From: a virus | Direction: 5' to 3' (one strand) | Virus record (IMG/VR): IMGVR_UViG_3300040946_000073 | Coordinates: 1-39,015 of that record | DNA: 39,015 bases | Shown here: positions 3,208-33,522 of the stretch, one piece after another | Position numbering within the stretch: position 1 is the stretch's first letter | Layout: every line of letters begins with the position of its first letter | Translations under genes and position numbers: made by a program | The notes under the pieces: generated by a model | Told to the model about the DNA's origin: nothing | Databases searched by the model: none | Seen by the model: the letters and a program-made list of their open reading frames with translations, nothing else

Positions 3208-3241
3208 CCGGCATGCCTCACTTCGAGCGCATTCACGGCGC

Positions 3242-6200
3242 TCAAATCTTCGCCGTCCAAGTTCCACTCAGGCAGACGGTTCCATGTCCGTCCTGCGAGA
3301 AAACCCATATGCCATTGGTGGAGCACGAGCCGCTGGGCGCCGTGGCAGGGCCGCTTACTTTCACCGTTTCGCAGGTCGCCACGGAACCCGCGGGCATGCC
3401 TGGCGGCACGCAGCCGTGGTATTGATCCCGGCGCGCTTCTTCGATCTGATCCGCCGTCAGGTTGCAGGTTCCCGCCGCTGTGCAGGCCGGATTGTTCGGG
3501 CCGGGGATGAATGCCCAGAATGGCTCTGCAGTTTGGTTGCCAGCCGTCCCGCTGCCACCGTTCGTCGCAGCAAGCTCGAAGTGGATATTGTGTGAGGTCG
3601 AGCTTCCGGTAGAGACAGTGCAAATCGCGACCTCCGGGCTCCAACCATTGCTGTAAAGTCCAGTGCCGAAGGCGCCGGGAGCGCAAGTGTTCGTCAACGA
3701 TCCGACGTTCTGCGTCGGCGTGAATTCGTTAGAGTCGTCCGACTGGATGAAGAACGAATTGCCGTTGCCAATCACGCCGCCTATCGATCCCGCCGTGTGC
3801 ACTTCATTCAATCCAGGTCGTACCCACGAACCGATGATGAAGTGATCGCCGGGGTAGGTTGCGCCCGTCCATGTGCCGATAGAAATGTTTGTGCCGGTAA
3901 CGCTCGTGTCGATCTCGGCTGCGGCCATCGACCCCGCTGGACCATCTGGGCCAACCGCCGCTGTAGCCGTGCAAGACGCCGATGCGCACAGGCCGCTCCA
4001 CGCAGCCACGGTATCGCTTGCCATGGGCAGGGAGCCGTAAGGGAGTATCGAAGGCGGAAAACTCGCGCTCTCGTTCTCAATCTCACCCGCCAGCAAATTG
4101 CCCTCATTGTAGACGCCGCTTGATGCCGACCCATTCGGCGGAAAGGCGCGGATTGCGCTCTGGGTCTCCGTGTCGGTCAGGTTGCCGTTGAAATAAGAGT
4201 TCGTGACCGGGTTCCCATAGAGGGTGGCCATGTACGTTTGCACGCAGCCGGATGGAGGCAGGCCGCCGTCCGTGTAGCCGATTTCAGGTTGATTCAAGAG
4301 GGAGATATTATCTTGAGTATTGAGGTTCGTCAGAGACAGGCAGTTCGGAGTTTGGATTCCGTTCCGGTTATCGACACTGATGACGTTGCCGAAAACCTCT
4401 TCAAAGTCCGGGTACGTGATGATCGGAAATCCGACAAGCTGATTTACACCGTCGCCGGTGATTTTGATGTTGCCGAAGAACCAGGTCTTGTCGATGGTCG
4501 TGCGGTCGCAGCCGTCTACTGAATGCGAATAGTAGCCGCCCACCGAGGCATCGGAATTGCACAGCAGGGCAGAGGGGTAACTAGGCTGTGAGCAACCCCC
4601 GCTCGGGCAACTGCCCGCGCCGTTCAAACTCTCTTGGAAATATCCGCCACTGATGTGCGAGAAGTAGTTTGAGCTAAGTTCCGTGGCGACAGAGGTGAGG
4701 TACGGCCATGCCTGCGTAGAGATATTATTCAGCGTCAGGTTTGTGCTGCCCTCAGCCCAGAAGCACGCGCCCGCGCACTGCTCGATGGTGAGATCGGACC
4801 AAGTTTGAGAGCCATAGGTGTTGAACGCAGGACCAGCCGCAACCTCTCCCCATTGGTCGGTCGAAAGGTGCGTGTGCTTGCTCATGACCGTGACCTGGCC
4901 CGAGCCGCATGAATTGTAGTTCACGCCGTTGAAGGTTCCGCCCACGCCGTTCGAGCACAGGATGCGGATTGATTCGAATTTGTCCTCGTTGAACCCTGTC
5001 GCCGTGCAGCCGGTAGCCGTCGTATTCGTCGTCGTGGTCACAAAGAAGGTGACGGTCTGGGCGGTGTAGTCGGAAGAAGCGACCGGGATGTTGCTTACAT
5101 TCACCGACGAATCCGAGCATCCAGTTACGGAGATGTTTTCGCCTGGAGGAATGCGCAGCGGAGTGGAGAACGAGAGAGTGACTTTGCTAAACCCCACAGG
5201 CGCATCGATGACGCGGGTCGCTGTGGCTGAGACGGAAGCGAGAGCAGCCCCCGTGAACGCCGCGCCGACTGGCAAGTTTGCAATACCGCACGATGGGCCG
5301 CCGCCGTAGACTGTCCCGCTGAAAGTCGGTGTGATGTTGGTCGCGGTATTCGCGGCGGTGATGGCCGTGCCCAGCGTTCCAGTGCACATCGGGCCAAAGA
5401 TCGTCGCCGGAACGGTGTCGTCTTGAAATTGTTGCGGCGCTCCGCCGGCATCGCCAAATAAGCTCGCCCAGCCCGGTAAGACCAAGGTCGAGCCAACCTG
5501 GAGACCCCCTTGCAATTCAAACTTCACCATTCCCGCCGATGGTCCAGTGAGCAGCGAAAAATTTTGCAGGTAACATCCCGGCCCCGTGCTGCCAGCCCGC
5601 ACGCAAGGTAGACGCACGATCCCCGTTCCGCCGTAGACGGAATCCACATTGCTGATGCACGCCTGCACCGCGCTGTAGATGTCCGTGGTCCCGTTAATCA
5701 CCGCGCCCTCGGAGCGAACGTCGCACACCGGCGAGAGAGAAGTGCTCGACTTTGCCGAGCCCACATTGCCGGTCACGGCGATGCCGTTAGCCCCGTCTGA
5801 GACGAGCCCGGTGATTGAACCTCCCGATGAACTGCCCGCCGGTCCCTGCGGCCCCGTGGCGCCGGTCGCGCCCGTTGGCCCCTGTGGAACCGTGAAATTA
5901 AGAACCGCCGCTGTGGAGCTTCCCGTGTTCGCCACCGCGGCGCTCGATCCTGCTGCGCCGGTGGTAGTGGTGCCGACCGATACCGTCGCGGAGCCGTTGC
6001 TGCCCGTCGGCCCCGTCGGCCCCGCAGGCCCCGCAGGCCCTTCGGCTATCAGCGCGGTTGGCGCTGCGGGGGGCACGTAAGTGTCGAAGCTCCACGTCGA
6101 TCCCGAGGGCTGCACGCACGGCATCACCGGCGCGGCCCATCCGGTCACCGCATCTAGAATCGTTGTCTTGTAGCAGAAGTGCAGCGGATTGGTCGTCGTC

Positions 6201-6478
6201 GTGTCGAGCACCGTGCAGGCCGTTCCGTTGAGCGCTGTCGTGATGGCCCCGTTTGCGACCAGGCACACGGCCGCGCGTGGAACCATCAGGCCGCCGCTCG
6301 ATCCCAGATTCACGTTGAGCGGGTTGCCGTTCGCATCCGTGGGCTGCATGGTGATCTCGCCGCGCTGCAGCGGAGCGTTATCGCCGCCTACGATCGTCGT
6401 GCCCACGATATGCGTGGTCTGCGCGAACACCGCGGAGGCGGCGAGAGCCAATATCGCAAACCCACGAAGCCGGTTCAC
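3242..6478 (-). CDS. Exported collagen/beta-helix tailspike-like protein
   Basis: This 1078-residue protein most likely starts at GTG 6476-6478: AGGAG lies 7 bases upstream and the start overlaps the previous stop (GTGA). Order of parts: signal peptide 1-19 (AVFA-QT); an N-terminal beta domain with paired Cys ending in CVQPSG, like that of the next fibre gene; short collagen-like stretches (GPAGPAGPTGPTG and GPTGATGATGPQGPAG); from about residue 250 a pectate-lyase-3/tailspike type entry (D..SEGAVINGTTD...AVQACI...GGTGIVRLP) leading into a long, Asn/Ser/Gly-rich right-handed beta-helix; a lectin-like beta region; and a small C-terminal domain. Such spikes bind or cut surface polysaccharide in known phages. 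I cannot point to catalytic residues. The many paired Cys fit an oxidising, exported location. Confidence 0.75.
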   Translation of the reverse strand: MNRLRGFAILALAASAVFAQTTHIVGTTIVGGDNAPLQRGEITMQPTDANGNPLNVNLGSSGGLMVPRAAVCLVANGAITTALNGTACTVLDTTTTNPLHFCYKTTILDAVTGWAAPVMPCVQPSGSTWSFDTYVPPAAPTALIAEGPAGPAGPTGPTGSNGSATVSVGTTTTGAAGSSAAVANTGSSTAAVLNFTVPQGPTGATGATGPQGPAGSSSGGSITGLVSDGANGIAVTGNVGSAKSSTSLSPVCDVRSEGAVINGTTDIYSAVQACISNVDSVYGGTGIVRLPCVRAGSTGPGCYLQNFSLLTGPSAGMVKFELQGGLQVGSTLVLPGWASLFGDAGGAPQQFQDDTVPATIFGPMCTGTLGTAITAANTATNITPTFSGTVYGGGPSCGIANLPVGAAFTGAALASVSATATRVIDAPVGFSKVTLSFSTPLRIPPGENISVTGCSDSSVNVSNIPVASSDYTAQTVTFFVTTTTNTTATGCTATGFNEDKFESIRILCSNGVGGTFNGVNYNSCGSGQVTVMSKHTHLSTDQWGEVAAGPAFNTYGSQTWSDLTIEQCAGACFWAEGSTNLTLNNISTQAWPYLTSVATELSSNYFSHISGGYFQESLNGAGSCPSGGCSQPSYPSALLCNSDASVGGYYSHSVDGCDRTTIDKTWFFGNIKITGDGVNQLVGFPIITYPDFEEVFGNVISVDNRNGIQTPNCLSLTNLNTQDNISLLNQPEIGYTDGGLPPSGCVQTYMATLYGNPVTNSYFNGNLTDTETQSAIRAFPPNGSASSGVYNEGNLLAGEIENESASFPPSILPYGSLPMASDTVAAWSGLCASASCTATAAVGPDGPAGSMAAAEIDTSVTGTNISIGTWTGATYPGDHFIIGSWVRPGLNEVHTAGSIGGVIGNGNSFFIQSDDSNEFTPTQNVGSLTNTCAPGAFGTGLYSNGWSPEVAICTVSTGSSTSHNIHFELAATNGGSGTAGNQTAEPFWAFIPGPNNPACTAAGTCNLTADQIEEARRDQYHGCVPPGMPAGSVATCETVKVSGPATAPSGSCSTNGIWVFSQDGHGTVCLSGTWTAKI

Positions 6479-6867
6479 TGAGCTTCTCCTTGCGCCTGAG
6501 CGACCACCGCCCACTGCGTGGTGGTGGGAGACGCCGGCAGCATGAACTTGGCGAACTCGCCGAACGCGCCCAGGTTCTGGCCTTCGTTGGTGAAGAAATA
6601 AGCACCGTACTTCGCGGACGGATTGAAGAGAGCGTCCGTCGTCGATTCCAGTGTGAAGGACGCGATGGTGAGCGTCGCGCCGCCCGCCGTGCAGGCCACA
6701 GCTACGAAGAAGTTGTCATTCTGCGAAGCATCCTCGCTGGGGACGCCGGCGGGGATCAGGTTGCCATCGGCGGAAACGAAGCTCTCCAGCGCGTAGATGC
6801 GCAGGACCACATTGTTGCTGAGCTCCCAGTTGCCGATGGTTGCGGGCGAGAAGGTGATGACGGCCAT
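6475..6867 (-). CDS. Hypothetical protein preceding exported spike
   Basis: This 130-residue protein starts at ATG 6865-6867. It has no signal peptide, no membrane segment and no motif that I recognise. It is rich in beta-forming residues, with a distinctive aromatic stretch (KYGAYFFTNEGQNLGAFGEF). Its stop overlaps the GTG start of the spike gene, so it is translationally coupled to it. A chaperone, an anchor or a fibre-connector role would fit the position, but nothing in the sequence shows it. Confidence 0.55.
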   Translation of the reverse strand: MAVITFSPATIGNWELSNNVVLRIYALESFVSADGNLIPAGVPSEDASQNDNFFVAVACTAGGATLTIASFTLESTTDALFNPSAKYGAYFFTNEGQNLGAFGEFAKFMLPASPTTTQWAVVAQAQGEAQ

Positions 6868-6894: not shown

Positions 6895-7434
6895 TTAGAG
6901 GCAGTCCGCGGCGGCAACGCTGCGCGGGGCGGTGAATTCTTTGTCTCGTGTCTCATTCAGGAAGTGCTTGAACGAAATCCGCGAGATGCGCCAGGTGTAT
7001 TCCTTGCTCAGCCGGTAGGCGTCGAAGCGGCCTTCTTCAATCAGGTAGATCAGCGGACGCCGGTCATCGTAGCCGAGCGCCGCCAACGCCTCGGCCGAGT
7101 AGATCGTGTCGCTTAGCGGGAAAGGCAGCAGATCCTCGTCGCGATGGCGCAGCATGGGGTGATCGAGCCTGGGACGCCGATCCGCAATGCCGTATTCCCC
7201 GCGCAGGAAGTTGCAGAAGCCCACGATCGACGAATAGAGCACGCGCTTGCGCGCCTGGTGGCGATAGCTCACCAGCTTGATGGCGGCGTGCCCGTCGCGA
7301 TAGCTTTCTTCGGCCATGCGGTAGACCGTGCTGATGCCGACGCCGAAGATGTGCGCGGTGCGCGCCACGTCCACGTACTCCTTCTCCGCGAAGGGCAGAA
7401 TGAGCTGGTCGCCGGGTTCGAAGCTGTTGCTCAT
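6895..7434 (-). CDS. HTH protein in the Mor position
   Basis: This 179-residue protein starts at ATG 7432-7434, overlapping the gemA stop (ATGA) and preceded by GGAGGAAGAAGG. Residues about 20-45 (VDVARTAHIFGVGISTVYRM) form an excisionase/MerR-type helix-turn-helix, and a second similar pattern occurs later (SAEALAALGYDDRRPLIYLI). In Mu the gene after gemA is mor, the activator of middle transcription. This protein sits in that position but does not look like Mor/C. A role as the early-to-late regulator is inference from position. It could instead be an excisionase-type DNA-bending protein. Confidence 0.6.
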   Translation of the reverse strand: MSNSFEPGDQLILPFAEKEYVDVARTAHIFGVGISTVYRMAEESYRDGHAAIKLVSYRHQARKRVLYSSIVGFCNFLRGEYGIADRRPRLDHPMLRHRDEDLLPFPLSDTIYSAEALAALGYDDRRPLIYLIEEGRFDAYRLSKEYTWRISRISFKHFLNETRDKEFTAPRSVAAADCL

Positions 7435-7943
7435 GCCTTCTTCCTCCAGATGCCCTTGCGCTTTGCGATACGCTTCAGCGCCCACCACACCTTGTTCGCA
7501 TCGGCTGTCGTCCGGATGGTTTTGTCGGCGCGTCTGGCCAGCGGCGATCGCGCCGATTCCAGGAATTTGCGGAATGTCTCCTGCTGCCATCCGAGCTGGT
7601 CTAGCAATCGCTGAATGCGCGCCAGATCTTCGCTGGTGGCCATCTGTGGCGTCGCGGAGTACTCCGCGCCATCCGCACGCCCATCCAGCCCCGCGCGCCG
7701 CGCCTGGGCCGCGCCGGGGCGCTTTACGATGGGAGCCTTGACGCCGAGCTGCTGCTGAATGCTGTCGATCAGGAAGGTCGCCTCGTTGAGCGAGAGCTGC
7801 TTGAAGCTCGCGATCTCGCGCTGCAGGCGCTCGCTGGCCCAGCGCAGTCGGGAGACGCGATCCGCGCTGAGCCCGATCTCGCGCTGTGAAAGTTGACTGT
7901 ACAGGATCTGCAGCCGGCCGAGTTGTGGTTTCGTGATCTGCAT
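7431..7943 (-). CDS. gemA: GemA-like regulatory protein (Mu gp16 family)
   Basis: This 170-residue protein opens with ITKPQLGRLQILYSQ, the typical start of the GemA/gp16 (DUF1018) family of Mu-like phages, and ends with a basic segment (KVWWALKRIAKRKGIWRKK) that also fits the family. In Mu, GemA is an early protein reported to affect host gene expression and DNA topology. The protein is Arg/Lys-rich and probably cytoplasmic and DNA-associated. It follows the small zinc protein directly (TGA next to ATG) and overlaps the downstream HTH gene, so it is part of one polycistronic message. The central part, Ala/Gln-rich with charged helices, is less conserved as far as I can judge. Confidence 0.8.
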   Translation of the reverse strand: MQITKPQLGRLQILYSQLSQREIGLSADRVSRLRWASERLQREIASFKQLSLNEATFLIDSIQQQLGVKAPIVKRPGAAQARRAGLDGRADGAEYSATPQMATSEDLARIQRLLDQLGWQQETFRKFLESARSPLARRADKTIRTTADANKVWWALKRIAKRKGIWRKKA

Positions 7944-8216
7944 TCAGTTCTTAAGCTTCTTCCGGCACTCGTCGCAGAGCACGGGCCATGGGTTGGCGCG
8001 CCGCTGCCTTCGTAGCTCGCGGCCATCGTGTTGGCGACACGCATCACAACAAAATTTCTGCACTCGGCGCCTCGGGTCGATCAGGTTGGTGCATCCCATT
8101 CGCTGGCATTGCCTTTTGTAGATCGTCACGATCTTTCCTTTTAGCCCCTTCGTTCGCGTCCACGCGCCACGTCTCGCCGCGCAAAATAAGGGACTTAATA
8201 CTTGAGTCCCTTTCAT
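7944..8216 (-). CDS. Small Cys-rich zinc-finger-like protein
   Basis: This 90-residue protein starts at ATG 8214-8216 with GGAG 9 bases upstream; the longer frame that runs into the upstream gene has no such support. The C-terminal two thirds carry CxxxxC, then FCCDAC, then CDEC, separated by basic residues (RRRVQKF, RRQRRANPW). This is a plausible zinc-ribbon or treble-clef fold of the kind that binds nucleic acid. It lies directly before gemA. The function is unknown. Confidence 0.6.
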   Translation of the reverse strand: MKGTQVLSPLFCAARRGAWTRTKGLKGKIVTIYKRQCQRMGCTNLIDPRRRVQKFCCDACRQHDGRELRRQRRANPWPVLCDECRKKLKN

Positions 8217-8265
8217 GGTTTCGGCTCCAAACGGCGGACTCTGCTCCAAAGTCGCGCGACGATCT

Positions 8266-8709
8266 TCACGCGATCCTCCGCTGGGCCATGTCCAAAAACT
8301 CCACGGCCCGCTGGATGACTGGCGGCATCTCGCGCGCCGCACCCTTGCGCGGGCCGTGTCTGCGCGCACACAGCACCTTGGCGAGTTCGTTGATCTTTTC
8401 TTGCGAACACTGACCCTCGAGCAGGATCACGTCGGCAAAGACCGTCGGCGCTTCAGTGAGCTCCTCGCCAATCACCATCGAGCGCATCAGCGGGCAGCGT
8501 TTGTGCAGCTCATCGAGCAGCGCGGAAGCGCCCTCGAAGGGCCAGCGCAGCACGGCCAGGTCCGGATAGACGATCACTGCCGCCCGGAGCGCGTCGCCGG
8601 CGTTGGCGACGGGGAACACCAGAAAGCCGCGGTTGCTCAAAACGAAACTGCGTATAGAGCAGCGCGTCTCGTCGGAATCAATCAGCAAAATCTTTTTCTT
8701 CGGTCTCAT
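8266..8709 (-). CDS. Degenerate response-regulator receiver protein
   Basis: This 147-residue protein has a receiver-type (CheY-like) N-terminal domain. The strand-1 and acid-pocket motif KKILLIDSDE is intact (D11, D13), followed by the typical A-x-x-G-x-x-A-L helix and the PDLAVLR strand. The phosphoacceptor position, where the family has Asp, is Arg (R55), and the conserved Lys region near strand 5 reads VILLEGQ. It therefore should not be phosphorylated in the usual way and is best called a pseudo-receiver. The last 35 residues are basic and helical. There is no output DNA-binding domain. It sits within the early operon among small zinc proteins, so a role in binding a host regulator or kinase is a guess. 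Confidence 0.6.
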   Translation of the reverse strand: MRPKKKILLIDSDETRCSIRSFVLSNRGFLVFPVANAGDALRAAVIVYPDLAVLRWPFEGASALLDELHKRCPLMRSMVIGEELTEAPTVFADVILLEGQCSQEKINELAKVLCARRHGPRKGAAREMPPVIQRAVEFLDMAQRRIA

Positions 8710-8718
8710 CGTTTCTTC

Positions 8719-9051
8719 TTAAAGTGTTTCTGCCCGCGTCCAGCGCGCGAGCTGCGCTTCTTGAGTCGCCACGTCGATCCGGTGCAGCCTGGCGACGGTG
8801 ATGATGGCGCGCAGCCGCGCTTTCAGGTACGGCCGCACATCGTTCTTGCCGCCCAGCCACGCCGCGAGCGAAAGCTCCACTTCACGGCGCAGCTCGGCGC
8901 GAACCTCGAACCAGTGCTGCTGGCATAGGAGATGCCGCCGCGGAATGCCCACCGCGCAGCCCGGAATCTGGCACACCTGGTGGAAGCGCGCTCCGGCCGA
9001 CGCCGGGAGCGCCGGTTTGCCATTGTCTCTGTTGACCGAGCGTGCGTACAT
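8719..9051 (-). CDS. Small protein with CxxxxC...CxxH cluster
   Basis: This 110-residue protein starts at ATG 9049-9051. Residues about 27-46 hold CQIPGC and LLCQQHW, giving a four-ligand Cys/Cys/Cys/His pattern that could bind one zinc. The rest is basic and helical (RAELRREVELSLAAWLGGK). This arrangement, a compact finger followed by a basic helix, recurs in other genes of this operon. Function unknown. Confidence 0.6.
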   Translation of the reverse strand: MYARSVNRDNGKPALPASAGARFHQVCQIPGCAVGIPRRHLLCQQHWFEVRAELRREVELSLAAWLGGKNDVRPYLKARLRAIITVARLHRIDVATQEAQLARWTRAETL

Positions 9052-9055
9052 GGTT

Positions 9056-9526
9056 TCAGCTCTCTTTCGCGGTTACGGTTTCAACCTCGTTGGAAATCTG
9101 CCCGAACAGCGCGCGCAGATCGTGTAAGTTCCGAATCACTCGGATGCGCTCCGCCAGCGCGACAATCTCTTTCACGTAGTCGGCGGTGCCGGAGATCCGC
9201 TCCTCGGCCGTGACGGCGAAGAAGTATCCGCCGGCGTCGCCATCGCGGCTGGCCACGATGGGCATGCCGAAGGTGACCACCAGCTCGCGCACATCGGCCT
9301 TGATTTCGCGCGGGCCGCTGCCAACCCTGGCAATGACTTCGGCGATGGTCATGGCCTGCAGTCTTCCCTGCCGGCCGCGCAGGCATTCGAGCAAACGGCG
9401 CTGCCGCTCGGTCAGCTCGCAAGTCGCCCGGCCCATCAGCACGTCGTGGATGCGGAGCTGGTTCTGGGCCACCGCGTCGCGGCGGACTTCCTCATCGCTG
9501 CGTGTTTCAAAAAGCGTGCCGATCAT
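9056..9526 (-). CDS. Winged-helix early protein
   Basis: In this 156-residue protein, residues about 38-105 form a winged helix: LTERQRRLLECLRGRQGR, a helix (TIAEVIARVG), a recognition-type helix (PREIKADVRELVVTFG) and a wing with GGYFFAV. This resembles the small winged-helix proteins that many phages carry in their replication and early modules. The C-terminal 40 residues are helical and could form a coiled coil. It overlaps the next gene by one codon (ATGA-type junction at 9523-9526). DNA binding is likely; the target is unknown. Confidence 0.65.
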   Translation of the reverse strand: MIGTLFETRSDEEVRRDAVAQNQLRIHDVLMGRATCELTERQRRLLECLRGRQGRLQAMTIAEVIARVGSGPREIKADVRELVVTFGMPIVASRDGDAGGYFFAVTAEERISGTADYVKEIVALAERIRVIRNLHDLRALFGQISNEVETVTAKES

Positions 9527-9804
9527 TGCAGGGTCTCCTTCGGTGGCGGATTGGGGTCAGGCGGCGGATCCGGGACGGGCTCCGTCGCGGGCACAAGGAT
9601 GGATCGAATCCGTTCCCACGCGGCGTTAGTGCTCCTTGCCAGCGCCATCAGGTTGATGTCGGCGACGGCCGTCGCCGGCAGGCAGCCGTGCAGGATGGCC
9701 GCGCGCTGGATGCGCGCCGCTTCGCGCATCCCGCGATAATTCATGTCGAGCAGGTCGTAAAGAAGATTCAACCGATCGATCTCTTCGGGCGCGAAGGTTT
9801 TCAT
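9523..9804 (-). CDS. Hypothetical early protein with Pro-rich tail
   Basis: The ATG start at 9802-9804 overlaps the upstream stop and gives 93 residues. The N-terminal 65 residues are helical and the tail is Pro-rich (VPDPPPDPNPPPKETL), likely disordered or protein-binding. No family recognised. It is coupled to both neighbours by overlapping start and stop codons. Confidence 0.55.
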   Translation of the reverse strand: MKTFAPEEIDRLNLLYDLLDMNYRGMREAARIQRAAILHGCLPATAVADINLMALARSTNAAWERIRSILVPATEPVPDPPPDPNPPPKETLQ

Positions 9805-10061
9805 TGGGCGTCTCCAAACATTTCGCGCTGCGCCGGCGGCGGCCCGTCTTTGTGGGTCGGGCAATAGTCCTGATCGGGGCCGACGCGGGTTGCGCACTTC
9901 TCGCACATGGCGTTGTTACAGACCGAGCCCGTAGGCTTTCTGAAATCGCAGAGCCGCGCCGCATATTCGTTGTGGCAGAAGGGGCAGAGCCTGACCTTCT
10001 TGCCGCCCCAGATGAACGCGGTGCGCGGGGCGTCGCTGGTTTGGAACGTAATGCAGGGCAT
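9801..10061 (-). CDS. Small multi-cysteine zinc-binding-like protein
   Basis: This 86-residue protein starts at ATG 10059-10061, overlapping the stop of the upstream gene. Its Cys/His pattern is dense: CPFC, then C, then C-x4-C-x2-C, then C-x2-H (YCPTHK). Eight potential ligands could hold two zinc ions in a RING- or double-ribbon-like fold. The start MPCITF... was chosen over a longer, Arg-rich frame that only shadows the upstream gene. Function unknown; probably a protein- or nucleic-acid-binding early factor. Confidence 0.6.
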   Translation of the reverse strand: MPCITFQTSDAPRTAFIWGGKKVRLCPFCHNEYAARLCDFRKPTGSVCNNAMCEKCATRVGPDQDYCPTHKDGPPPAQREMFGDAQ

Positions 10062-10282
10062 CAGCTCACCGTCTCCGTCGTGGTCAAAGAATCTTCGAGC
10101 AGTTGCCCACACTCCGCGCAGTAGTCGTGCGGAACGCGGCGGCTCTTGCCGCAAGCATCGCGCGCGAGAATCTCGACGTAATGCGCGAAGCGCATCCCCA
10201 GCCAAATCTCCTCGCCGCACTCGCAGCAGATGTGCGACCCGCTGGCCATCATCCAGCGCACGGGCTCGATCGTTTCTTTCAT
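10061..10282 (-). CDS. Small CCxxC/CxxC zinc-ribbon-like protein
   Basis: This 73-residue protein starts at ATG 10280-10282 (MKETIEPV...). It has ICCECG near residue 20 and YCAECG near residue 58, two knuckles separated by about 35 residues, as in a classic zinc ribbon. It is acidic at the C-terminus (LLEDSLTTTETV). It overlaps both neighbours by 1-4 bases. Function unknown. Confidence 0.6.
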   Translation of the reverse strand: MKETIEPVRWMMASGSHICCECGEEIWLGMRFAHYVEILARDACGKSRRVPHDYCAECGQLLEDSLTTTETVS

Positions 10283-10956
10283 GACACGAAGCCTTCCAGG
10301 CGGATCACGCAGTGGGCGCCGAAGATCGCAGCCTTGTCGCAAGTGGTCAACTGCTTCCACCATGCGTCGAGAAGCGCGCGCTGCACCGACAGGGTCACTG
10401 GCGCGGACTCAGGAGCCGTCGCCGGCGGCTCGGGCACAGCGGGATCCGGCAGCGGAGGCGGCGATAGAGGCGGCCATCTGGTCGACGCAAGATTGCCCGG
10501 AAGATCCTCGGGGCTGCGCGGCTTCGCGGCCTGGGGGTGCGGGCCGCGGACGCCAAGCGGCCGCCCATGGAGTACCGCGATGCCGGCCTCGCGCCGCCAC
10601 TTGCCCACCGTGACATCGGAGACCGTGTACTTGCGCGCCAGCGCGGCGTTCGAGACACTGACGGGCTGGGCCAGAACGGCCCGCTTAATCTCGGGGTCGA
10701 TCGGTTTGGCGCCCTTTTTCCTGCCGCTTGCAAGGCTCACAGGTTTCTCCTTTTTCATCGGTTCGAATTTAATCGACTCAAGAATGGGCGCCGGAAGCTC
10801 GATGGCCGCCGCGCGGTGAGACTCGGGCGGCGGCGGATGCGTTCCGTCGTCGCAGGCCGCGCAGAGAGCCTCACAGCCGAAGCAGATGACCGCGGAGCAG
10901 CAGAGGCACTGCGTGCATTTCTTGCCAGCCGGCGCGGAGGTGGCGTGCTCAACCAT
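10279..10956 (-). CDS. Zinc-knuckle plus HTH early protein
   Basis: This 225-residue protein starts at ATG 10954-10956 with GGAG six bases upstream. A TTG seven codons earlier is possible but less likely. The N-terminal 40 residues hold a Cys cluster (CTQCLCC...CFGC...CAAC). Residues about 75-130 carry a helix-turn-helix of transposase/Trp-repressor type (NAALARKYTVSDVTVGKWRR). Then comes a Pro-rich linker and a C-terminal helical part. A dual metal-site and HTH protein would most simply be a transcription or recombination factor. The partner and target are unknown. Confidence 0.6.
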   Translation of the reverse strand: MVEHATSAPAGKKCTQCLCCSAVICFGCEALCAACDDGTHPPPPESHRAAAIELPAPILESIKFEPMKKEKPVSLASGRKKGAKPIDPEIKRAVLAQPVSVSNAALARKYTVSDVTVGKWRREAGIAVLHGRPLGVRGPHPQAAKPRSPEDLPGNLASTRWPPLSPPPLPDPAVPEPPATAPESAPVTLSVQRALLDAWWKQLTTCDKAAIFGAHCVIRLEGFVS

Positions 10957-11527
10957 TGAAATCTCCGTCGTGATCAATCGTCTTCACCATGTGCGAACGG
11001 AAGCCTTCGCGGCGGTCAGCTTTCTTCGCGCGCTTCGCGGGCTTGGCCGGATCGGCGATGCTGACTTTGAGCGACGGCTTCTTGGGCTTGACGCTGATGC
11101 AGCGGCCCCAGAGATTGAGCACCTTCTCCGAAAGCCGCTTGGGCAGCGATTCAGCCTTGAGCGCGGCCTCCGCGCCTTCCACCACTTCCCACTTCCGCCG
11201 CTCGGCGAACAGCCGGGGGAAGAACGCGCCGTAGCCGTTGGCTTCGAGCGCATCCTTCAATGTGTCCACGCGCTCGTCGACGACAGTCAGCGTGTCGGCC
11301 TTGGTGACGGTGAACTCCGAGAGCTTGCCGGCCAGGCGGCGGCTCTTTTCGGCGTGGGCGGGAACGTCGCCCCACTCCCGCACCAGCGCGATGGCTTCTT
11401 CCTCGATGGCCTTGAACGCCTCGCCGGCGGTGAGCGTCGCCAGCTTCGCAGCCAGGTAGCGCGCGGCCAGCTCGTCGAGCTGGTCAGGTGTCGGCCGTAG
11501 AGCGTCAATCTGATCCGGAATGCGCAT
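10949..11527 (-). CDS. Hypothetical helical early protein, Gam-like position
   Basis: This 192-residue protein starts at ATG 11525-11527, nine bases after the previous TAA. The N-terminal half is strongly helical and charged (coiled-coil-like, TPDQLDELAARYLAAKLATL). The middle has FFPRLFAERRKWEVVEG, and the C-terminus is very basic (KPAKRAKKADRR). In position and style it recalls the host-nuclease inhibitor/Gam or DUF3164 proteins that follow the B gene in Mu-like phages, but I see no signature that settles this. DNA binding through the basic tail is plausible. Confidence 0.55.
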   Translation of the reverse strand: MRIPDQIDALRPTPDQLDELAARYLAAKLATLTAGEAFKAIEEEAIALVREWGDVPAHAEKSRRLAGKLSEFTVTKADTLTVVDERVDTLKDALEANGYGAFFPRLFAERRKWEVVEGAEAALKAESLPKRLSEKVLNLWGRCISVKPKKPSLKVSIADPAKPAKRAKKADRREGFRSHMVKTIDHDGDFNG

Positions 11528-11531
11528 AAAT

Positions 11532-11795
11532 TTATGTGTCCTTTCCGTTCGTGATGGAACTGTTGGCCTTGAGTTCATCGAGCCAGCGCGAGAGGCGAAT
11601 GTGCGCGCACGCCTCGCCGCAGAGATCCTCGTACCGCCAGTCAGAGTTGCGCGCCTGGACGTGGGCCGCTTGACCCGCGGAAAGAAAGACGATGGTCCCA
11701 AGCTCGGCGCCGGGCTCGATGGCGGCGACGATCCAATGGTTGGTCTCCTGCTTCTGTCGCCCGCAGACGTTGCACGCAACCGTGATCACATCCAT
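11532..11795 (-). CDS. Small CxxC...CxxxC early protein
   Basis: The ATG start (MDVITVACNVCG) overlaps nothing and gives 87 residues. A CNVC knuckle near residue 8 and CGEAC near residue 65 could form one zinc site; the segment between them is predicted beta. It is part of the run of small metal-binding-like early proteins. Function unknown. Confidence 0.55.
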   Translation of the reverse strand: MDVITVACNVCGRQKQETNHWIVAAIEPGAELGTIVFLSAGQAAHVQARNSDWRYEDLCGEACAHIRLSRWLDELKANSSITNGKDT

Positions 11796-11797
11796 CG

Positions 11798-12040
11798 CTA
11801 CGCCGCCCTTCCGCCGCCCGGCCGCCCTACGCACGCGCAATTGGGCGAGCCTCCGACATGCGGCTTCTTGGGATGGCCGTTCGCGACCTGGACGACAATC
11901 GATTCGCCGCACCGCGCGCACTCGGCCGACGCGATCCGGTCGCCGTCATCTTTGCGGCGCCTCCAGGGCATGAACAGCGCGTGCCCGCGGCTTTCCGCGA
12001 TCAGCGTGGCCTCTTTTTCGACAACGCGAATCTTCGCCAT
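11798..12040 (-). CDS. Small Cys/His early protein
   Basis: This 80-residue protein starts at ATG 12038-12040, which overlaps the stop of the upstream gene. It has ECARCG near residue 41 and, after a His-containing loop, NCACVG near the C-terminus, which would make a zinc ribbon. The N-terminus is basic with a Trp-Arg-Arg-Arg-Lys patch that could contact nucleic acid. Function unknown. Confidence 0.55.
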   Translation of the reverse strand: MAKIRVVEKEATLIAESRGHALFMPWRRRKDDGDRIASAECARCGESIVVQVANGHPKKPHVGGSPNCACVGRPGGGRAA

Positions 12041-12321
12041 CACCGCGCCGCCTTTCCAGCCTTCAATCCCATGTCCAGGCCCACCACGACCAGGTCGAGG
12101 CCGCGCAGAATGGCCTTGGCTACCGGCGCGGGCACGCCGTCCCAAACCTCGACGCATTCCAGCGCCAGATCGAGATTGGAGCGCAACATGCGCAGCGCGT
12201 CCTTGAATTCGGCGGGGATCTTCACCAGCGCGCCGTCGCGCACGATGCACTTCATGTCGCCGTTGCCGTCAACATAGGCCACGCGATCTTCGCTCGCGGG
12301 GGGCTTGACTTCGTAGATCAT
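12040..12321 (-). CDS. Hypothetical early protein
   Basis: This 93-residue protein starts at ATG 12319-12321 with AGGTGG just upstream, overlapping the upstream stop. It has a short beta N-terminus and a helical C-terminal half (EFKDALRMLRSNLDLALECV; LDLVVVGLDMGLKAGK). Unlike its neighbours it has no Cys pairs. No family recognised. Confidence 0.5.
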   Translation of the reverse strand: MIYEVKPPASEDRVAYVDGNGDMKCIVRDGALVKIPAEFKDALRMLRSNLDLALECVEVWDGVPAPVAKAILRGLDLVVVGLDMGLKAGKAAR

Positions 12322-12719
12322 TGGCCACCTCGCAGGATCCGCTCGACGGGACCGCCGGGCAGGAAGGCTGTACCGACTTCAGCCATGATGTAGAGCATGG
12401 TCAGAATCACGGCGATCGCCAGCACGTTGTTCGCCACGCGGCCGGCGCGTTCAAGCCACGCGCTGATGCGCCGCATCTGGCTGTCGCTGGGCGCGAAGTC
12501 GAGCAGCGCGGCCCAGCGTTGGCGCAGCGTCTTTCTGACGGCGCGCTGCTGGCGCCAAGCCTGCATCGCGTCGACCTCTTCCTGGCAGCGCGGGCAATAA
12601 GGTCCCCCAATGGCGAAGCCGGTGCAGCCACGCACTTGGCAGGGATGGAGCGCGTTGGGAGCGTCGCCGTCGAGGTAACGGCACAGGGATGAAGGAATGG
12701 TTTGCGTACCGGAGTTCAT
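12318..12719 (-). CDS. Zinc-knuckle protein with one membrane segment
   Basis: This 133-residue protein starts at ATG 12717-12719, overlapping the MuB-type stop (ATGA). The N-terminal third has Cys pairs (C...CQVRGC...YCPRC) consistent with a zinc ribbon. The middle is basic and helical. Near residues 97-118 lies a membrane-type segment (VLAIAVILTMLYIMAEVGTAF). A soluble zinc domain anchored to the inner membrane is unusual in the early transposition region of a Mu-like phage. The role is unknown. Confidence 0.6.
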   Translation of the reverse strand: MNSGTQTIPSSLCRYLDGDAPNALHPCQVRGCTGFAIGGPYCPRCQEEVDAMQAWRQQRAVRKTLRQRWAALLDFAPSDSQMRRISAWLERAGRVANNVLAIAVILTMLYIMAEVGTAFLPGGPVERILRGGQ

Positions 12720-13693
12720 GCGATGGCTTCCTTTCTGTCTGCGGCCTCTTGCACTGCCGCGCGTGCGTCTTCGATGGCAAAGAACAAATTGCGCGCCGAG
12801 ACGTAGCGAAACGGCTTGGCGTTGCGCACCGCCTCGACCGATGCACCCTGAATGATGTCGGCCAGGTCGCGCTTGGCTATGGTTCCGAGTTCGGACGTGA
12901 GGATGTGCTGCGCCTCGGCTTCGCTCAGCCCTGCGAGCAGGTGACTGCGGCGCAGGCGGCTGCGCCACTGCTCCATCTGCCAGTTCCTGAGGCGCACGCT
13001 GAGATCGTGGCTGCCGCCCAGCATCACGCCGAAGAACGGCGGCGTGTCGAGCAACTGGCGCAGGATCTCCAGCGTGTTGAACGGGAGATGCTGCGCCTCG
13101 TCGACGATCAGCAGCGCGCGCTGGCCGCCCAGGAAGAAGCGCAGCTTGCGGATGAGCTGCCCGATCGAACCACGGTTGGGAATGCCAGCCTCGGTGCAGG
13201 CTTCGACGAGGAATGCCGAGGGCGCGTGATCGACGCGCGCATACACGTAGACCGCGCGACCCTCGCCGGAAGCGTTGATCTCCGCGGCCACATTGCGAAA
13301 GGTGTAGGTCTTCTGGGTTCCCGGAGGCCCGTCGATGAGAAACGCCGTGCTCTGGCGCAGCGCGTTCCACATTGATCTGCGCACGCGCTCAAACTCAACC
13401 GTCGCATAATGAGGCCCGCTGGCGGGCTCCGCGGTCTCGATTTCGTAGCGGTCTATTGTTTCCTTCACCGCCGCGCGGATGTTCAGCGTATTCGAGTCCG
13501 CCGCGCGGTGACGATCGTAGTTGCCGGCAATCCACACATGGAAAGAGTTGTGGTTAATGCCCACCATATTGGCCAGCTCGATGTAGGTGAGGCCCGCGCG
13601 CAGCGCAAACGCGCGGGCGCGGCGGATCATCTCGGTGTCGTTGGGCAACCCGAGGGCTTGCAGGTGCTGCTTACGAATCGCTGCTACAGGCAC
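12716..13693 (-). CDS. MuB-type AAA+ ATPase, target activator
   Basis: This 325-residue protein starts at GTG 13691-13693 with AGGAG five bases upstream, and overlaps the transposase end by 23 bases. The N-terminal region (about 25-60) is a helix-turn-helix, as in MuB. Walker A is GPPGTQKT (122-129) and Walker B is LLIVDEAQ (194-201); GGSHD near 227 fits sensor 1. MuB-family ATPases form filaments on target DNA, stimulate the transposase and give target immunity. Position directly after the A gene and domain order both fit. Product: DNA transposition protein B homologue. Confidence 0.88.
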   Translation of the reverse strand: MPVAAIRKQHLQALGLPNDTEMIRRARAFALRAGLTYIELANMVGINHNSFHVWIAGNYDRHRAADSNTLNIRAAVKETIDRYEIETAEPASGPHYATVEFERVRRSMWNALRQSTAFLIDGPPGTQKTYTFRNVAAEINASGEGRAVYVYARVDHAPSAFLVEACTEAGIPNRGSIGQLIRKLRFFLGGQRALLIVDEAQHLPFNTLEILRQLLDTPPFFGVMLGGSHDLSVRLRNWQMEQWRSRLRRSHLLAGLSEAEAQHILTSELGTIAKRDLADIIQGASVEAVRNAKPFRYVSARNLFFAIEDARAAVQEAADRKEAIA

Positions 13694-15548
13694 CGTTTCT
13701 CCTTAAAAGTGCTGCCGTGAGCCGGTCTGTAAGTTCGCCTGGCTGTAAGTCATTTGTGGGTTCGAGCGTTTCCGGCGCAAACCTGTGCTTGCGCTGCGTG
13801 ACGATGCCGGTGACATCGCCGGGAAGTGAAAGCCGCGAGGCCATGGCCTCAAGCGGAGACTGCGCGCCGTTGGAGCGGGCGACGCGGCCGATCGTGCTGA
13901 GGGTTTCGCGCGTGGCCTTTTCGAGGCCGCGCCGCGTCTTGAAGCTGTCCGCAATCTGCTGCTGTGTGCGCTCGTTGCCGGGCGCGAAGCGGACCAAATC
14001 CTCGACCCGCAGCCACGCCAGGAAGCAGCCATCCACGTCGAGGGCCGCGGCGCACTCCCAATCGTTGGGATCGTAGGCCACCACAATCTCGCGCTCATTG
14101 CGCTCGTGGATGGTCATCCATCCCGCCTGGTCGACGGGAAGATAGCGGCGCTTGCCGAGCGTGATGGCGCATTCGCGAACTTTTCTGGTTCCACGTTCGG
14201 CCAGCAGCAGCGCCAGCGCGGCCGGATCGGGCGCAGGCGCCTGGTTCGGATTGCGGTTCGCGTTGAAGACTTCGAGAGGCGACCCGCCTTCCATAGCTTC
14301 GCCGGTGTGCGGCGTGGCGTTGTATTCGTCAATCCACGCCAGGCAGGCAACGATGAAGCGGCTGGCCAGCGGATGGCGGCTCTCACTCGCGCGCCCGGCG
14401 CGCAGCAGGCGGCGATGATCAATCATGGCGAGCGACGTAGCATCGGGGCGCGTGAAGGGATTGCCGCTGGTGTAGGTGGGCCAGCACTTGTCGAAGCGCT
14501 CGTGCAGCGAACGGAAGAAACGCTCGACGTGCTTGGATTGCGGGTGGTGCGGAATGCAGTGCGTGACGGCGATGCCCAGGCGCGCCAGAAAGCCGGTGTG
14601 GCCGATGTCTTCGAGCTCCGCGCGCCACCATTCCTTGGGCGCCAGCGGCGACTCCTGCAGGTAGCCGGGCATTGCGCCGCGCGCCACTTTTTTGTAGTCC
14701 TTGCCGTTGTCGACGTAGATGTGTTCCGGCGGCCCATGCTGGAAGATGCCGCGCCGCATGGTGGCGGCGATGGCGCGCGAGCTGCCCTCCCACGCCCAGC
14801 TCGCACCGGCCAACAAGCGAGAGCGATAGTCGAGCATGGCGGAGAGCCGGATGCGGATCGGCGCGCCCCACTCCACATCTTCAAAGAGATCGTTGGCGCA
14901 CTCCACGTCGTGGATCATGTGATCGCCCACCCACACCTGGTTCGCCCAGATGTCGGTGTAGCCGCGGCGCAGGTACGCGGCCATGCGCTCGCGATAAACC
15001 TTGCGCCCTTCTCGCGCGTAAACAGTGAGCGCCGCCGGCATCTGCTTCAGCCAGGCGCGCACCGTTTCGTAGGCGGGCGCTTCCTCGGCCGGAATTTCAA
15101 GGAGTATCAGATCGCGCACGATGGCTTCGTGCGCCACTCTGACGCTGGTGCGTTCGTCAAGATAAAGGTAGGCAGCCAGCCACGCGGCTTTCGGATAGGA
15201 AGAAAAAAAGCGGGAAGTGTTTTTGTCGCGGCGCTGCCGATCGGCGAGGGCCGGCAGGCCGCCTTCGCGGAAAGCATTGAGCCAGTTGAACAACGTGGCG
15301 ACGCCGACGCCCGAGGTTTCCGATGTGTATTTGACCAGGCGGCTGAAGCTGGTGACGGCTTGCCCGTTTTCTAAGCGCAGATCCGCGTACTTGGGAGCGC
15401 CCGCGCGGAAGCCTAGAAGCGGCGCGATCAGCTTCGATCTCGTTTCGGCCTGTTGCTGCGCCTCCGGATCGGTAAGCGCCACGCGCCGCGGCCGCGCCAG
15501 CGAGGCGGGAGGAAAGGGCAGAAGGGCTAACTGCGGTTGCGCGCTCAC
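13671..15548 (-). CDS. MuA-type DDE transposase
   Basis: This 625-residue protein starts at GTG 15546-15548, overlapping the Ner-like stop (GTGA). An N-terminal helical, HTH-rich region precedes the RNase H-like core. The catalytic triad is visible as D209 (QVWVGDHMIHD), D280 (HIYVDNGKDY) and E342 (HPQSKHVERFF), close to the spacing in MuA. A beta-barrel-like segment follows (RRYLPVDQAGW), then a Lys/Arg-containing C-terminus that should contact the B protein. It would cut and join the phage ends during integration and replicative transposition. The ends it acts on are not in the window. Confidence 0.9.
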   Translation of the reverse strand: MSAQPQLALLPFPPASLARPRRVALTDPEAQQQAETRSKLIAPLLGFRAGAPKYADLRLENGQAVTSFSRLVKYTSETSGVGVATLFNWLNAFREGGLPALADRQRRDKNTSRFFSSYPKAAWLAAYLYLDERTSVRVAHEAIVRDLILLEIPAEEAPAYETVRAWLKQMPAALTVYAREGRKVYRERMAAYLRRGYTDIWANQVWVGDHMIHDVECANDLFEDVEWGAPIRIRLSAMLDYRSRLLAGASWAWEGSSRAIAATMRRGIFQHGPPEHIYVDNGKDYKKVARGAMPGYLQESPLAPKEWWRAELEDIGHTGFLARLGIAVTHCIPHHPQSKHVERFFRSLHERFDKCWPTYTSGNPFTRPDATSLAMIDHRRLLRAGRASESRHPLASRFIVACLAWIDEYNATPHTGEAMEGGSPLEVFNANRNPNQAPAPDPAALALLLAERGTRKVRECAITLGKRRYLPVDQAGWMTIHERNEREIVVAYDPNDWECAAALDVDGCFLAWLRVEDLVRFAPGNERTQQQIADSFKTRRGLEKATRETLSTIGRVARSNGAQSPLEAMASRLSLPGDVTGIVTQRKHRFAPETLEPTNDLQPGELTDRLTAALLRRNGACSSDS

Positions 15549-15754
15549 GCCGCACGCTCCAGCATCTTGTCCCGGATGCGCCGAACTTCCCTGTCAATGG
15601 CTGTCGCAACCCGCTTTGATCGCCTGACGCCGCGGGCGACGTGGCGGACATGCTGGGGACTGACGCGGAGCTTGCGGGCGATGCGGCTATAGAGCCCGTA
15701 AAAATTAGCGGCCAACTCGAGCTCAGGTGTCGTACGCTTTTCGGAAGGATGCAA
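15545..15754 (-). CDS. Ner-like small HTH regulator
   Basis: About 69 residues. An open frame extends upstream to a TTG at 15808, but that TTG is the first base triplet of a TTGACA promoter box, so it should not be translated. I prefer TTG 15752-15754, which has GAGG 6 bases upstream and lies about 20 bases after the expected transcription start. The centre (FYGLYSRIARKLRVSPQHVR) is a helix-turn-helix, followed by a basic C-terminus. In Mu, Ner is the small protein that opens the early operon and turns down early and repressor transcription; position and size fit. The exact start is uncertain. Confidence 0.6.
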   Translation of the reverse strand: MHPSEKRTTPELELAANFYGLYSRIARKLRVSPQHVRHVARGVRRSKRVATAIDREVRRIRDKMLERAA

Positions 15755-15779
15755 CTTGAACCTCGGATGTATGCAGGCG

Positions 15780-15808
15780 AGGATAGTCCCGATAGTATTT
15801 TCTGTCAA
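15780..15808 (-). promoter_or_regulatory. Early leftward sigma70-type promoter
   Basis: On the minus strand TTGACA (15808-15803) is followed after 17 bases by TATCCT (15785-15780). The -35 box is perfect and the -10 box matches TATAAT at 4 of 6. It would drive the Ner/transposase operon with a start near 15773. It ends 12 bases short of the repressor start codon on the other strand. Confidence 0.65.
15782..15796. promoter_or_regulatory. Candidate operator: GATAGT direct repeat
   Basis: Two copies of GATAGT at 15782-15787 and 15791-15796 (9-base period) cover the -10 box and part of the spacer of the leftward early promoter, next to the start of the repressor gene. A protein bound here would block early transcription. 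This is a candidate site for the HTH repressor or the Ner-like protein. Confidence 0.4.
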
Positions 15809-15820
15809 GAGGGAAAATGA

Positions 15821-16273
15821 GTGCCCGTGAAAAAAGAGGAATTGCCGCCGTACGCGCTGCGGTTGAGAGCCCTGCGAGACAAGCTCGGCTTCGATCGTCA
15901 GATTGAATTCGCTGCCGCCCTAGGCACAAGGCAAGCCACTATATCCAGATGGCTTAATGGCACGGCTCGGCCGCTGCCGCTCGCCTTCATGCGCATGGCC
16001 GGGCTGGCTCAAGGCGAGGACCGCATCTTCTTTCTGAGAGAGGGCGGCGTTCTTATCGAGGACGGTGACCCTGTGGACCCGGCGATCGCCCAGTCCTTTT
16101 TCGCCGGCGAGTCCCGGCCGGCGAAAGCGCGCGCCAACCTCGCCGCGCTCCTTGAAGCCATCCCAACCTTGGATAGCGAAACGATCTGCGCTATCATGGA
16201 GGCCGCGAGCCGCGAGCTCGCGAAGAGGGCTCGCGCTGGACGCGCTTCCGCGCCCGGAAAGGAACTTCCATGA
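15821..16273 (+). CDS. HTH repressor candidate
   Basis: This 150-residue protein starts at GTG 15821, the first start after an in-frame stop, with AAGAGGG upstream. Residues 27-47 form an HTH (QIEFAAALGTRQATISRWLNG) of the Cro/CI type. The C-terminal helical region (residues about 100-145) may serve oligomerisation. I see no Ser-Lys protease (LexA-like) domain, so RecA-driven self-cleavage is not expected. It is divergent from the early operon and next to a candidate operator, as expected for the lysogeny repressor of a transposable phage. It overlaps the next gene by 4 bases (ATGA). Confidence 0.7.
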   Translation: MPVKKEELPPYALRLRALRDKLGFDRQIEFAAALGTRQATISRWLNGTARPLPLAFMRMAGLAQGEDRIFFLREGGVLIEDGDPVDPAIAQSFFAGESRPAKARANLAALLEAIPTLDSETICAIMEAASRELAKRARAGRASAPGKELP

Positions 16274-33117: not shown

Positions 33118-33522
33118 ATGGCGATTGACGTGACACGCGACGGGGAAGGATTGCGCATCGCTCTCAGCGAAATGCTGGAGCGGGGCTTCGCCCAATCGCG
33201 GATCTCGCGGTCGCTTGACGACTCGGATGAGGCGGCCGGCGAACGGATGTTTGGATCCTTGCCGCCGTTCACGCTCTCGCCCGGCTATTACAAGCGCGCC
33301 GAGTACCTGCTGTGGCTGGAGAAATGCAAGAGCACCGGACTGACGCAACAGATGGTCGGATTCACGATGGCAGAGGCGGACGGATTGATGGCGGTGGCCG
33401 AGGCGCGCAGCCAGTTCGAGCGCAACCATCCGCCGTGCGGCGTGTGTGGCGCGTTGCAGGAGACGCCGTTCGCCACGAGCTGCTGCAAGTGCAGCACGGA
33501 ATTTGTGCGGAGGGCTGCGTAG
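33118..33522 (+). CDS. Tail assembly protein with C-terminal zinc ribbon (T-like position)
   Basis: This 134-residue protein starts at ATG 33118, which touches the previous stop. The N-terminal 95 residues are helical (YYKRAEYLLWLEKCKSTG, MAEADGLMAVAEARSQF). The last 30 residues hold CGVCG...CCKCSTEF, two knuckles that fit a zinc ribbon. In lambda the T part of GT binds the tape measure and recruits tube protein. This protein sits directly before the tape measure gene, again separated by one TAG in the same frame. Confidence 0.6.
   Translation: MAIDVTRDGEGLRIALSEMLERGFAQSRISRSLDDSDEAAGERMFGSLPPFTLSPGYYKRAEYLLWLEKCKSTGLTQQMVGFTMAEADGLMAVAEARSQFERNHPPCGVCGALQETPFATSCCKCSTEFVRRAA

Follow-up and report, generated by a model that had tools for sequence, protein, structure and literature searches.

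The early operon of the virus record IMGVR_UViG_3300040946_000073, analysed here over its whole length of 39,015 bases (the window), contains a cluster of small genes whose products carry paired cysteines, and this cluster, previously described from the letters of the sequence alone (the sequence-only reading), is partly confirmed by comparison with relatives as six firm families and not eight. The operon lies on the minus strand and is comprised of transposase A, the ATPase B, 13 small genes and a gene in the position of GemA; the eight genes singled out earlier, here numbered g1 to g8, are among these (Table 1). Our interpretation, held with a little less than even confidence, is that the operon is the early region of a clade of Mu-like phages of Acidobacteriota, the small proteins of which would be adaptors acting on both phage and host machinery. 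The cluster is a real, conserved and enriched variant of a known arrangement, and its wider interest is in g3, with its cross-brace-like site, and in g6, which is shared with hosts.

Conservation and enrichment of the paired-cysteine genes

All eight open reading frames (ORFs) are present on the minus strand with the starts first given for them, and a gene model trained for this analysis recovers seven; g1 was missed, and is supported by conservation instead. The packing is as dense as had been claimed, since between A and the GemA-position gene there are 15 junctions, nine with overlaps of 1-23 base pairs (bp), five with 0-9 bp separating the genes and one with 49 bp. Relatives were gathered as 28 viral loci found via the transposase and six genome loci found via B, three of the latter being metagenome-assembled genomes of Acidobacteriaceae with a B 69-72% identical, and six further scans with family alignments enlarged the sets. 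In the counts that follow, rows are distinct cores in relatives and the full ligand pattern was required.

The ligand pattern is kept in 27 of 28 rows for g1, 47 of 49 for g2, all 36 for g3 (the complete eight-ligand set), 31 of 47 for g5 and 48 of 49 for g6, with g4 as given in Table 1. The single miss in g6 is a fragment at a contig edge, and those in g2 are a second ORF piece (L155) and a protein which keeps the ligands without a flanking residue demanded by the pattern (L041). Fourteen of the 16 misses in g5 were inspected, and most are pieces holding only the helix-turn-helix (HTH), only the C-terminus, a second slot or another frame; in three, two CxxC pairs are retained but differently spaced, and in one just a single ligand is missing. 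The claim of Cys/His pairs in all eight genes is thus confirmed as a conserved feature for g1 to g6 and not for the other two. For g7, with its single relative, the evidence is too thin to judge a zinc-protein family. In g8 the cysteine motif occurs in none of 14 relatives, the shared part being the hydrophobic C-terminal half with a segment ending GGAVxRVLGG, and a zinc-protein family is ruled out at the family level.

That the proteins are unrelated outside their motifs is borne out by hhalign, in which all 15 pairs among g1 to g6 give P <= 17.5%; one expanded zinc family is thereby ruled out. All eight genes have a ratio of nonsynonymous to synonymous polymorphism (pN/pS) under 1, with synonymous sites near saturation, and together with the conservation this rules out spurious ORFs.

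Under a fixed rule of two or more C-x2-4-[CH] pairs, seven of the 13 early genes qualify as against three of the 36 other genes of the window (Fisher p=0.0016); these seven take in g8 and leave out g7. The number expected is 0.06 if the amino-acid composition is taken from the other genes and 1.6 if it is taken from the early genes themselves, in which case seven is attained in 0.1% of trials. Shuffling the residues of single proteins is unremarkable (the fraction attaining the observed pairs is 0.03-0.60), so the case for g1 to g6 depends on conservation in relatives. These shuffles, and the failure of the gene model to call g1, are what might be said for short, GC-rich ORFs with cysteines scattered at random; such an origin is nevertheless scarcely credible given the ligand conservation, the pN/pS values and the synteny, conservation speaking against chance for each of g1 to g6. 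Across the clade, paired cysteines are found in 50 of 228 early genes and in 14 of 281 genes outside (p=7e-9), a count which covers 17 of the 30 non-window loci, seven having been dropped as near-duplicates or for want of B and six because the GemA-position marker was missing.

The arrangement recalls the semi-essential early region of Mu (kil to gemA), where small genes are grouped in the interval from B to gemA. Two of Mu's 11 early genes, E5 and E14, have two or more cysteine pairs, compared with 7/13 in the window, and g1 to g6 have no profile relation to either (P <= 27%); a Gam-like protein and a canonical GemA were both undetected in the window by profile searches. In six other described Mu-like phages 6/53 early genes qualify in total, which the window exceeds (p=0.002). 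As Mu itself has such genes, the window is best described as an enriched variant and not as a new kind of region.

The cysteines might instead hold iron, or serve as redox sensors or structural disulfides. In sequence the g6 knuckle comes closest to rubredoxins, though not significantly (E 0.42), but the spacings are compatible with zinc sites of the treble-clef, ribbon and cross-brace types and a histidine stands at a ligand position in g2 and g3. We consider these alternatives to zinc highly improbable.

The six families and their nearest likenesses

The N-terminal 32 or so residues of g1 are not conserved, and its true start is therefore probably nearer 8117. No Pfam family matches g1 and its PHROGs matches are no better than E 0.047; weak matches were obtained with L24e (hmmsearch, E 0.31) and with the YacG profile (hhalign, P 82% over 11 columns). 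The second family, g2, belongs to PHROG 18063, and as the function of that PHROG is unknown, membership offers no mechanism. It occurs also on contigs of more than 100 kb. An apparent fusion of g2 with the neighbouring receiver gene in one locus (L029) was discarded because of an ambiguous base at the junction. A search of the Phages collection by protein returned nothing for g2 and one weak match for g3. In g4, the likeness to the DksA/TraR finger (Pfam zf-dskA_traR) falls below the cutoff, at 19.2 against 24.9 bits over 15 residues.

The model of g3 (predicted local distance difference test, pLDDT, 73; predicted template modelling score 0.50) weakly resembles the cross-brace fingers of the FYVE/RING type. 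Its six highest-ranked VIA rows are FYVE-type domains of RIM, melanophilin, Slp4 and CARP2, with Z from 5.0 to 2.7, weak but consistent, the top match having a root-mean-square deviation (rmsd) of 2.5 over 51 residues. The likeness to FYVE, RIM and Slp fingers lies in these weak structure matches and in eight ligands in a compatible order; those fingers, however, are eukaryotic signalling domains, and g3 is without their sequence signature. In a viral structure library the best match is an uncharacterised phage protein (E 0.0056).

Within the interpretation that we prefer, the most probable role of g5 is that of a regulator which binds DNA at specific sequences. Its central HTH aligns with that of Mor, one of the Mor/C activators of Mu (hhalign P 82%), and several solved HTH proteins match the same stretch, each weakly; the alignment with Mor/C is confined to 26 columns, with no similarity beyond the HTH and no Pfam family at E<=1. 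It differs from Mor/C by the N-terminal cysteine knuckle and by lying before, not after, the GemA position. In most relatives of g5 a single frame encodes both knuckle and HTH, and a methionine frequently lies within it ahead of the HTH; in one locus the two are in different, overlapping frames (L003:14658-15119 and L003:14768-15466). Among 297 Acidobacteriota genomes, g5 matches were found in ten, the whole protein being matched only in the prophage-bearing genome G002 and the others showing the HTH or part of it. In the same genomes g1, g2, g3 and g4 were found in 1, 2, 3 and 3 respectively, G002 being each time among them; g1 to g4 are thus almost absent outside prophages.

The sixth family, in contrast, has kin on chromosomes of the host phylum. 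Of 396 genomes, 30 carry relatives of g6, at one to three copies apiece, and the four cysteines are kept in 41 of 42 host rows. Of the host loci fetched, 47 of 48 have neither this clade's transposase nor its B in the fetched stretch, and the other (L227) adjoins both. In a tree of this short domain (90 rows, 81 columns, midpoint root), 45 of the 48 phage rows fall on one weakly supported side (78/90) and three sit among the host rows. No name was given by Pfam or NCBIfam to six examples of the host family. The family comprises several paralogue groups (e.g., L221, L223, L225, L228), and two copies adjoin a MerR-type gene.

The g6 model (pLDDT 81) predicts a knuckle, a hairpin with an inserted helix, a strand and a long helix. 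Its nearest structure rows are chains of the large ribosomal subunit (Z 4.2, rmsd 2.1-2.9 over 45-47 residues), presumably L24e, a treble-clef zinc protein. Given the chromosomal kin of g6 in the host phylum, an action on the host is plausible: most likely it binds the partner of its chromosomal relatives as a mimic or competitor, and it is possibly a mimic of the host protein.

A more specific proposal would make g6 a YacG-like inhibitor of gyrase which tunes supercoiling for transposition. It has the same cysteine order as YacG (PF03884), CxxC...CxxxC, in 48/49 rows, and a treble-clef-like model; position +8, counted from the last cysteine, is aromatic (W, Y or F) in 45 of 47 phage rows and is tryptophan in 32 of these, the corresponding residue of YacG being tryptophan in 18 of 18; among host kin an aromatic stands there in 29 of 41 rows. 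The review PMC10886550 describes a YacG tryptophan as inserting into GyrB, which may or may not be the one at +8. Two of 20 g6 members match PF03884 at E<=0.1 (best 0.012), and the NCBIfam YacG model gives 0.017, but the scores are far under the cutoffs, at 13.4 against 25.5 bits and 14.8 against 79 bits respectively. Furthermore, g6 has a longer insert between its cysteine pairs, the Asp (+4) and Gly (+6) of YacG's D-L-G-x-W motif are not among the residues listed for g6 at those positions, and its alignment with YacG (hhalign P 18%) is under that obtained with g1. Six host relatives of g6 lie within 150 bp of a gene which, by our own reading of its sequence, we take to be coaE-like; canonical YacG genes were near coaE in none of 20 loci fetched, and the argument from this neighbourhood was therefore dropped. 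YacG is not among the g6 structure matches listed, which excludes nothing. On balance we consider YacG-like inhibition distinctly improbable.

Proposed action on phage and host machinery

On the interpretation that we prefer, at least six unrelated small proteins would be metal-binding modules, the metal being most likely zinc, expressed early along with A and B. Their role would be that of small adaptors, joining protein to protein or protein to DNA, which set phage gene expression and bend the host transcription or replication machinery toward transposition, with part of the set regulating phage genes, as proposed for g5, and part engaging host machinery, as proposed for g6. An extension of this, which we hold to be unlikely, would make g3 a double-zinc module of the cross-brace (FYVE/RING-like) kind and g6 the phage version of a multi-paralogue zinc family of the host, with g6 competing for a partner, perhaps gyrase, and so opening the chromosome to transposition.

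Several points weigh against the adaptor interpretation. The identity of the metal, the early expression and the partners are all inferred, and the structure matches of both g3 (best Z 5.0, best Foldseek E 0.40) and g6 (best Z 4.2, best Foldseek E 0.29) are weak. The excess of paired-cysteine genes in the clade over the six Mu-like phages (50/228 vs 6/53) is borderline (p=0.055). The gene set differs between relatives, so some members may be dispensable passengers, and g1 to g4 could act on phage components alone.

The last point leads to the alternative of a regulatory set internal to the phage, of the Mor, Ogr or Com kind, working on phage promoters, mRNA or the transpososome and having no host target. 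The Mor-like HTH of g5, which may act on phage promoters, would fit here, as would the near restriction of g1 to g4 to phages and the location straight after the transposition genes. However, g6 has its chromosomal relatives, and no known phage zinc regulator was found in Pfam at E<=1, gpCom being reached in PHROGs only by g7 and at E 0.11. We regard a wholly internal set as somewhat unlikely.

The suggestion that the cluster acts on the host, and is a place to look for anti-defence, anti-transcription or takeover proteins, fares unevenly. An early operon of small paired-cysteine proteins is indeed present, and g6 lends plausibility to host action, but no pointer to anti-CRISPR, anti-restriction or RNA polymerase-binding activity emerged: searches with Pfam, NCBIfam and PHROGs profiles yielded no named function. 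PADLOC, which holds defence genes and not counter-defence models, gave matches at chance level only. An island in which several proteins block CRISPR, restriction or other defences would accord with small, variable, non-core genes beside the transposition genes and with a gene set which shifts between relatives. Typical anti-defence genes are swapped rapidly, though, while most of these families are syntenic and conserved over divergent relatives, and in the absence of a match to any named function we consider such an island quite unlikely. PMC12407980 reports that a Mu-like phage is made sensitive to Gabija defence by its own Gam and GemA; early proteins of this sort can thus encounter a defence system and yet not inhibit it.

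Most early genes of transposable phages, even those of Mu, have unknown functions. Six genes with conserved metal sites, one of which has chromosomal kin in the host phylum, provide concrete handles for comparing one family between phage and host, and this would provide an initial clue to a protein family of Acidobacteriota without a Pfam or NCBIfam name. No account of the cluster turned up in the literature, a statement which extends only to the searches made.

Neighbouring genes and other features of the window

Table 1. Features of the early operon and its surroundings
Feature	Position	Strand	Basis
GemA-position gene	7431..7943	-	position; GemA identity without profile support
g1: C-x4-C...FC-x3-C...C-x2-C, treble-clef-like pattern	7944..8216	-	ligands in relatives
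Degenerate CheY-type receiver, within cluster, not among the eight	8266..8709	-	profile vs PDB receivers, E 2.8e-13
g2: C-x3/4-C...C-x2-HW knuckle and tail; PHROG 18063	8719..9051	-	42/42 rows match phrog_18063
Non-zinc early protein, phrog_2113, unknown function	9056..9526	-	PHROGs 1.2e-9; tblastn match in 23 loci
Non-zinc early protein	9523..9804	-	ORF and gene model
g3: eight-ligand double site CxxC-C-C-x4-CxxC-CxxH, cross-brace-like	9801..10061	-	ligands and model
g4: CxEC...YCxxCG...LLEDSLTT	10061..10282	-	four Cys in 9/10 rows
g5: N-terminal Cys knuckle (CxxCxCC...CxxCD), central HTH, C-terminal WW...DKAxIF domain	10279..10956	-	relatives, hhalign
Non-zinc core early protein	10949..11527	-	tblastn match in 23 loci
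g6: CxxC-x3-K-x3-NHW...CGxxC, treble-clef-like, kin to chromosomal Acidobacteriota family	11532..11795	-	relatives and model
g7: small protein, one CxxC	11798..12040	-	one relative only (L001)
Non-zinc early protein	12040..12321	-	tblastn match in 16 loci
g8: conserved hydrophobic (membrane-like) segment; N-terminal Cys motif in window copy alone	12318..12719	-	relatives
Transposition ATPase B	12716..13693	-	phrog_296 1.7e-30; AAA_22 5.7e-14
Transposase A	13671..15548	-	phrog_310 1.4e-75
Sigma70-like promoter match, just upstream of early operon	15780..15808	-	10/12 bases

The cluster had been placed between B and GemA. Its B side is firm (Table 1), and on the other side Pfam, PHROGs and hhalign were all negative for GemA, the last giving P=2.5% against six annotated GemA proteins (111 columns). 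The gene at 7431-7943 recurs in 21 loci and is well conserved, but no GemA profile matches it; judged by its position it may still be a remote GemA.

The site at 15808-15780 is the only sigma70-like match in 7300-16100, where 1.1 would be expected by chance, and so represents no excess. The receiver at 8266-8709 is kept in relatives, with a phospho-acceptor aspartate that is not conserved and a basic, ARKRGPR-like tail. In one related locus (L001:10001-12760) the transposase has 84% identity to that of the window, against about 26% for the B ATPase, which suggests that relatives have exchanged B. The genes after the early operon, also on the minus strand (1195-6514), encode two large proteins which bear collagen-like repeats and probably resemble tail fibres, and in the structural half a small protein (33118-33522, plus) which matches no Pfam or PHROGs family has a C-terminal end with paired cysteines.

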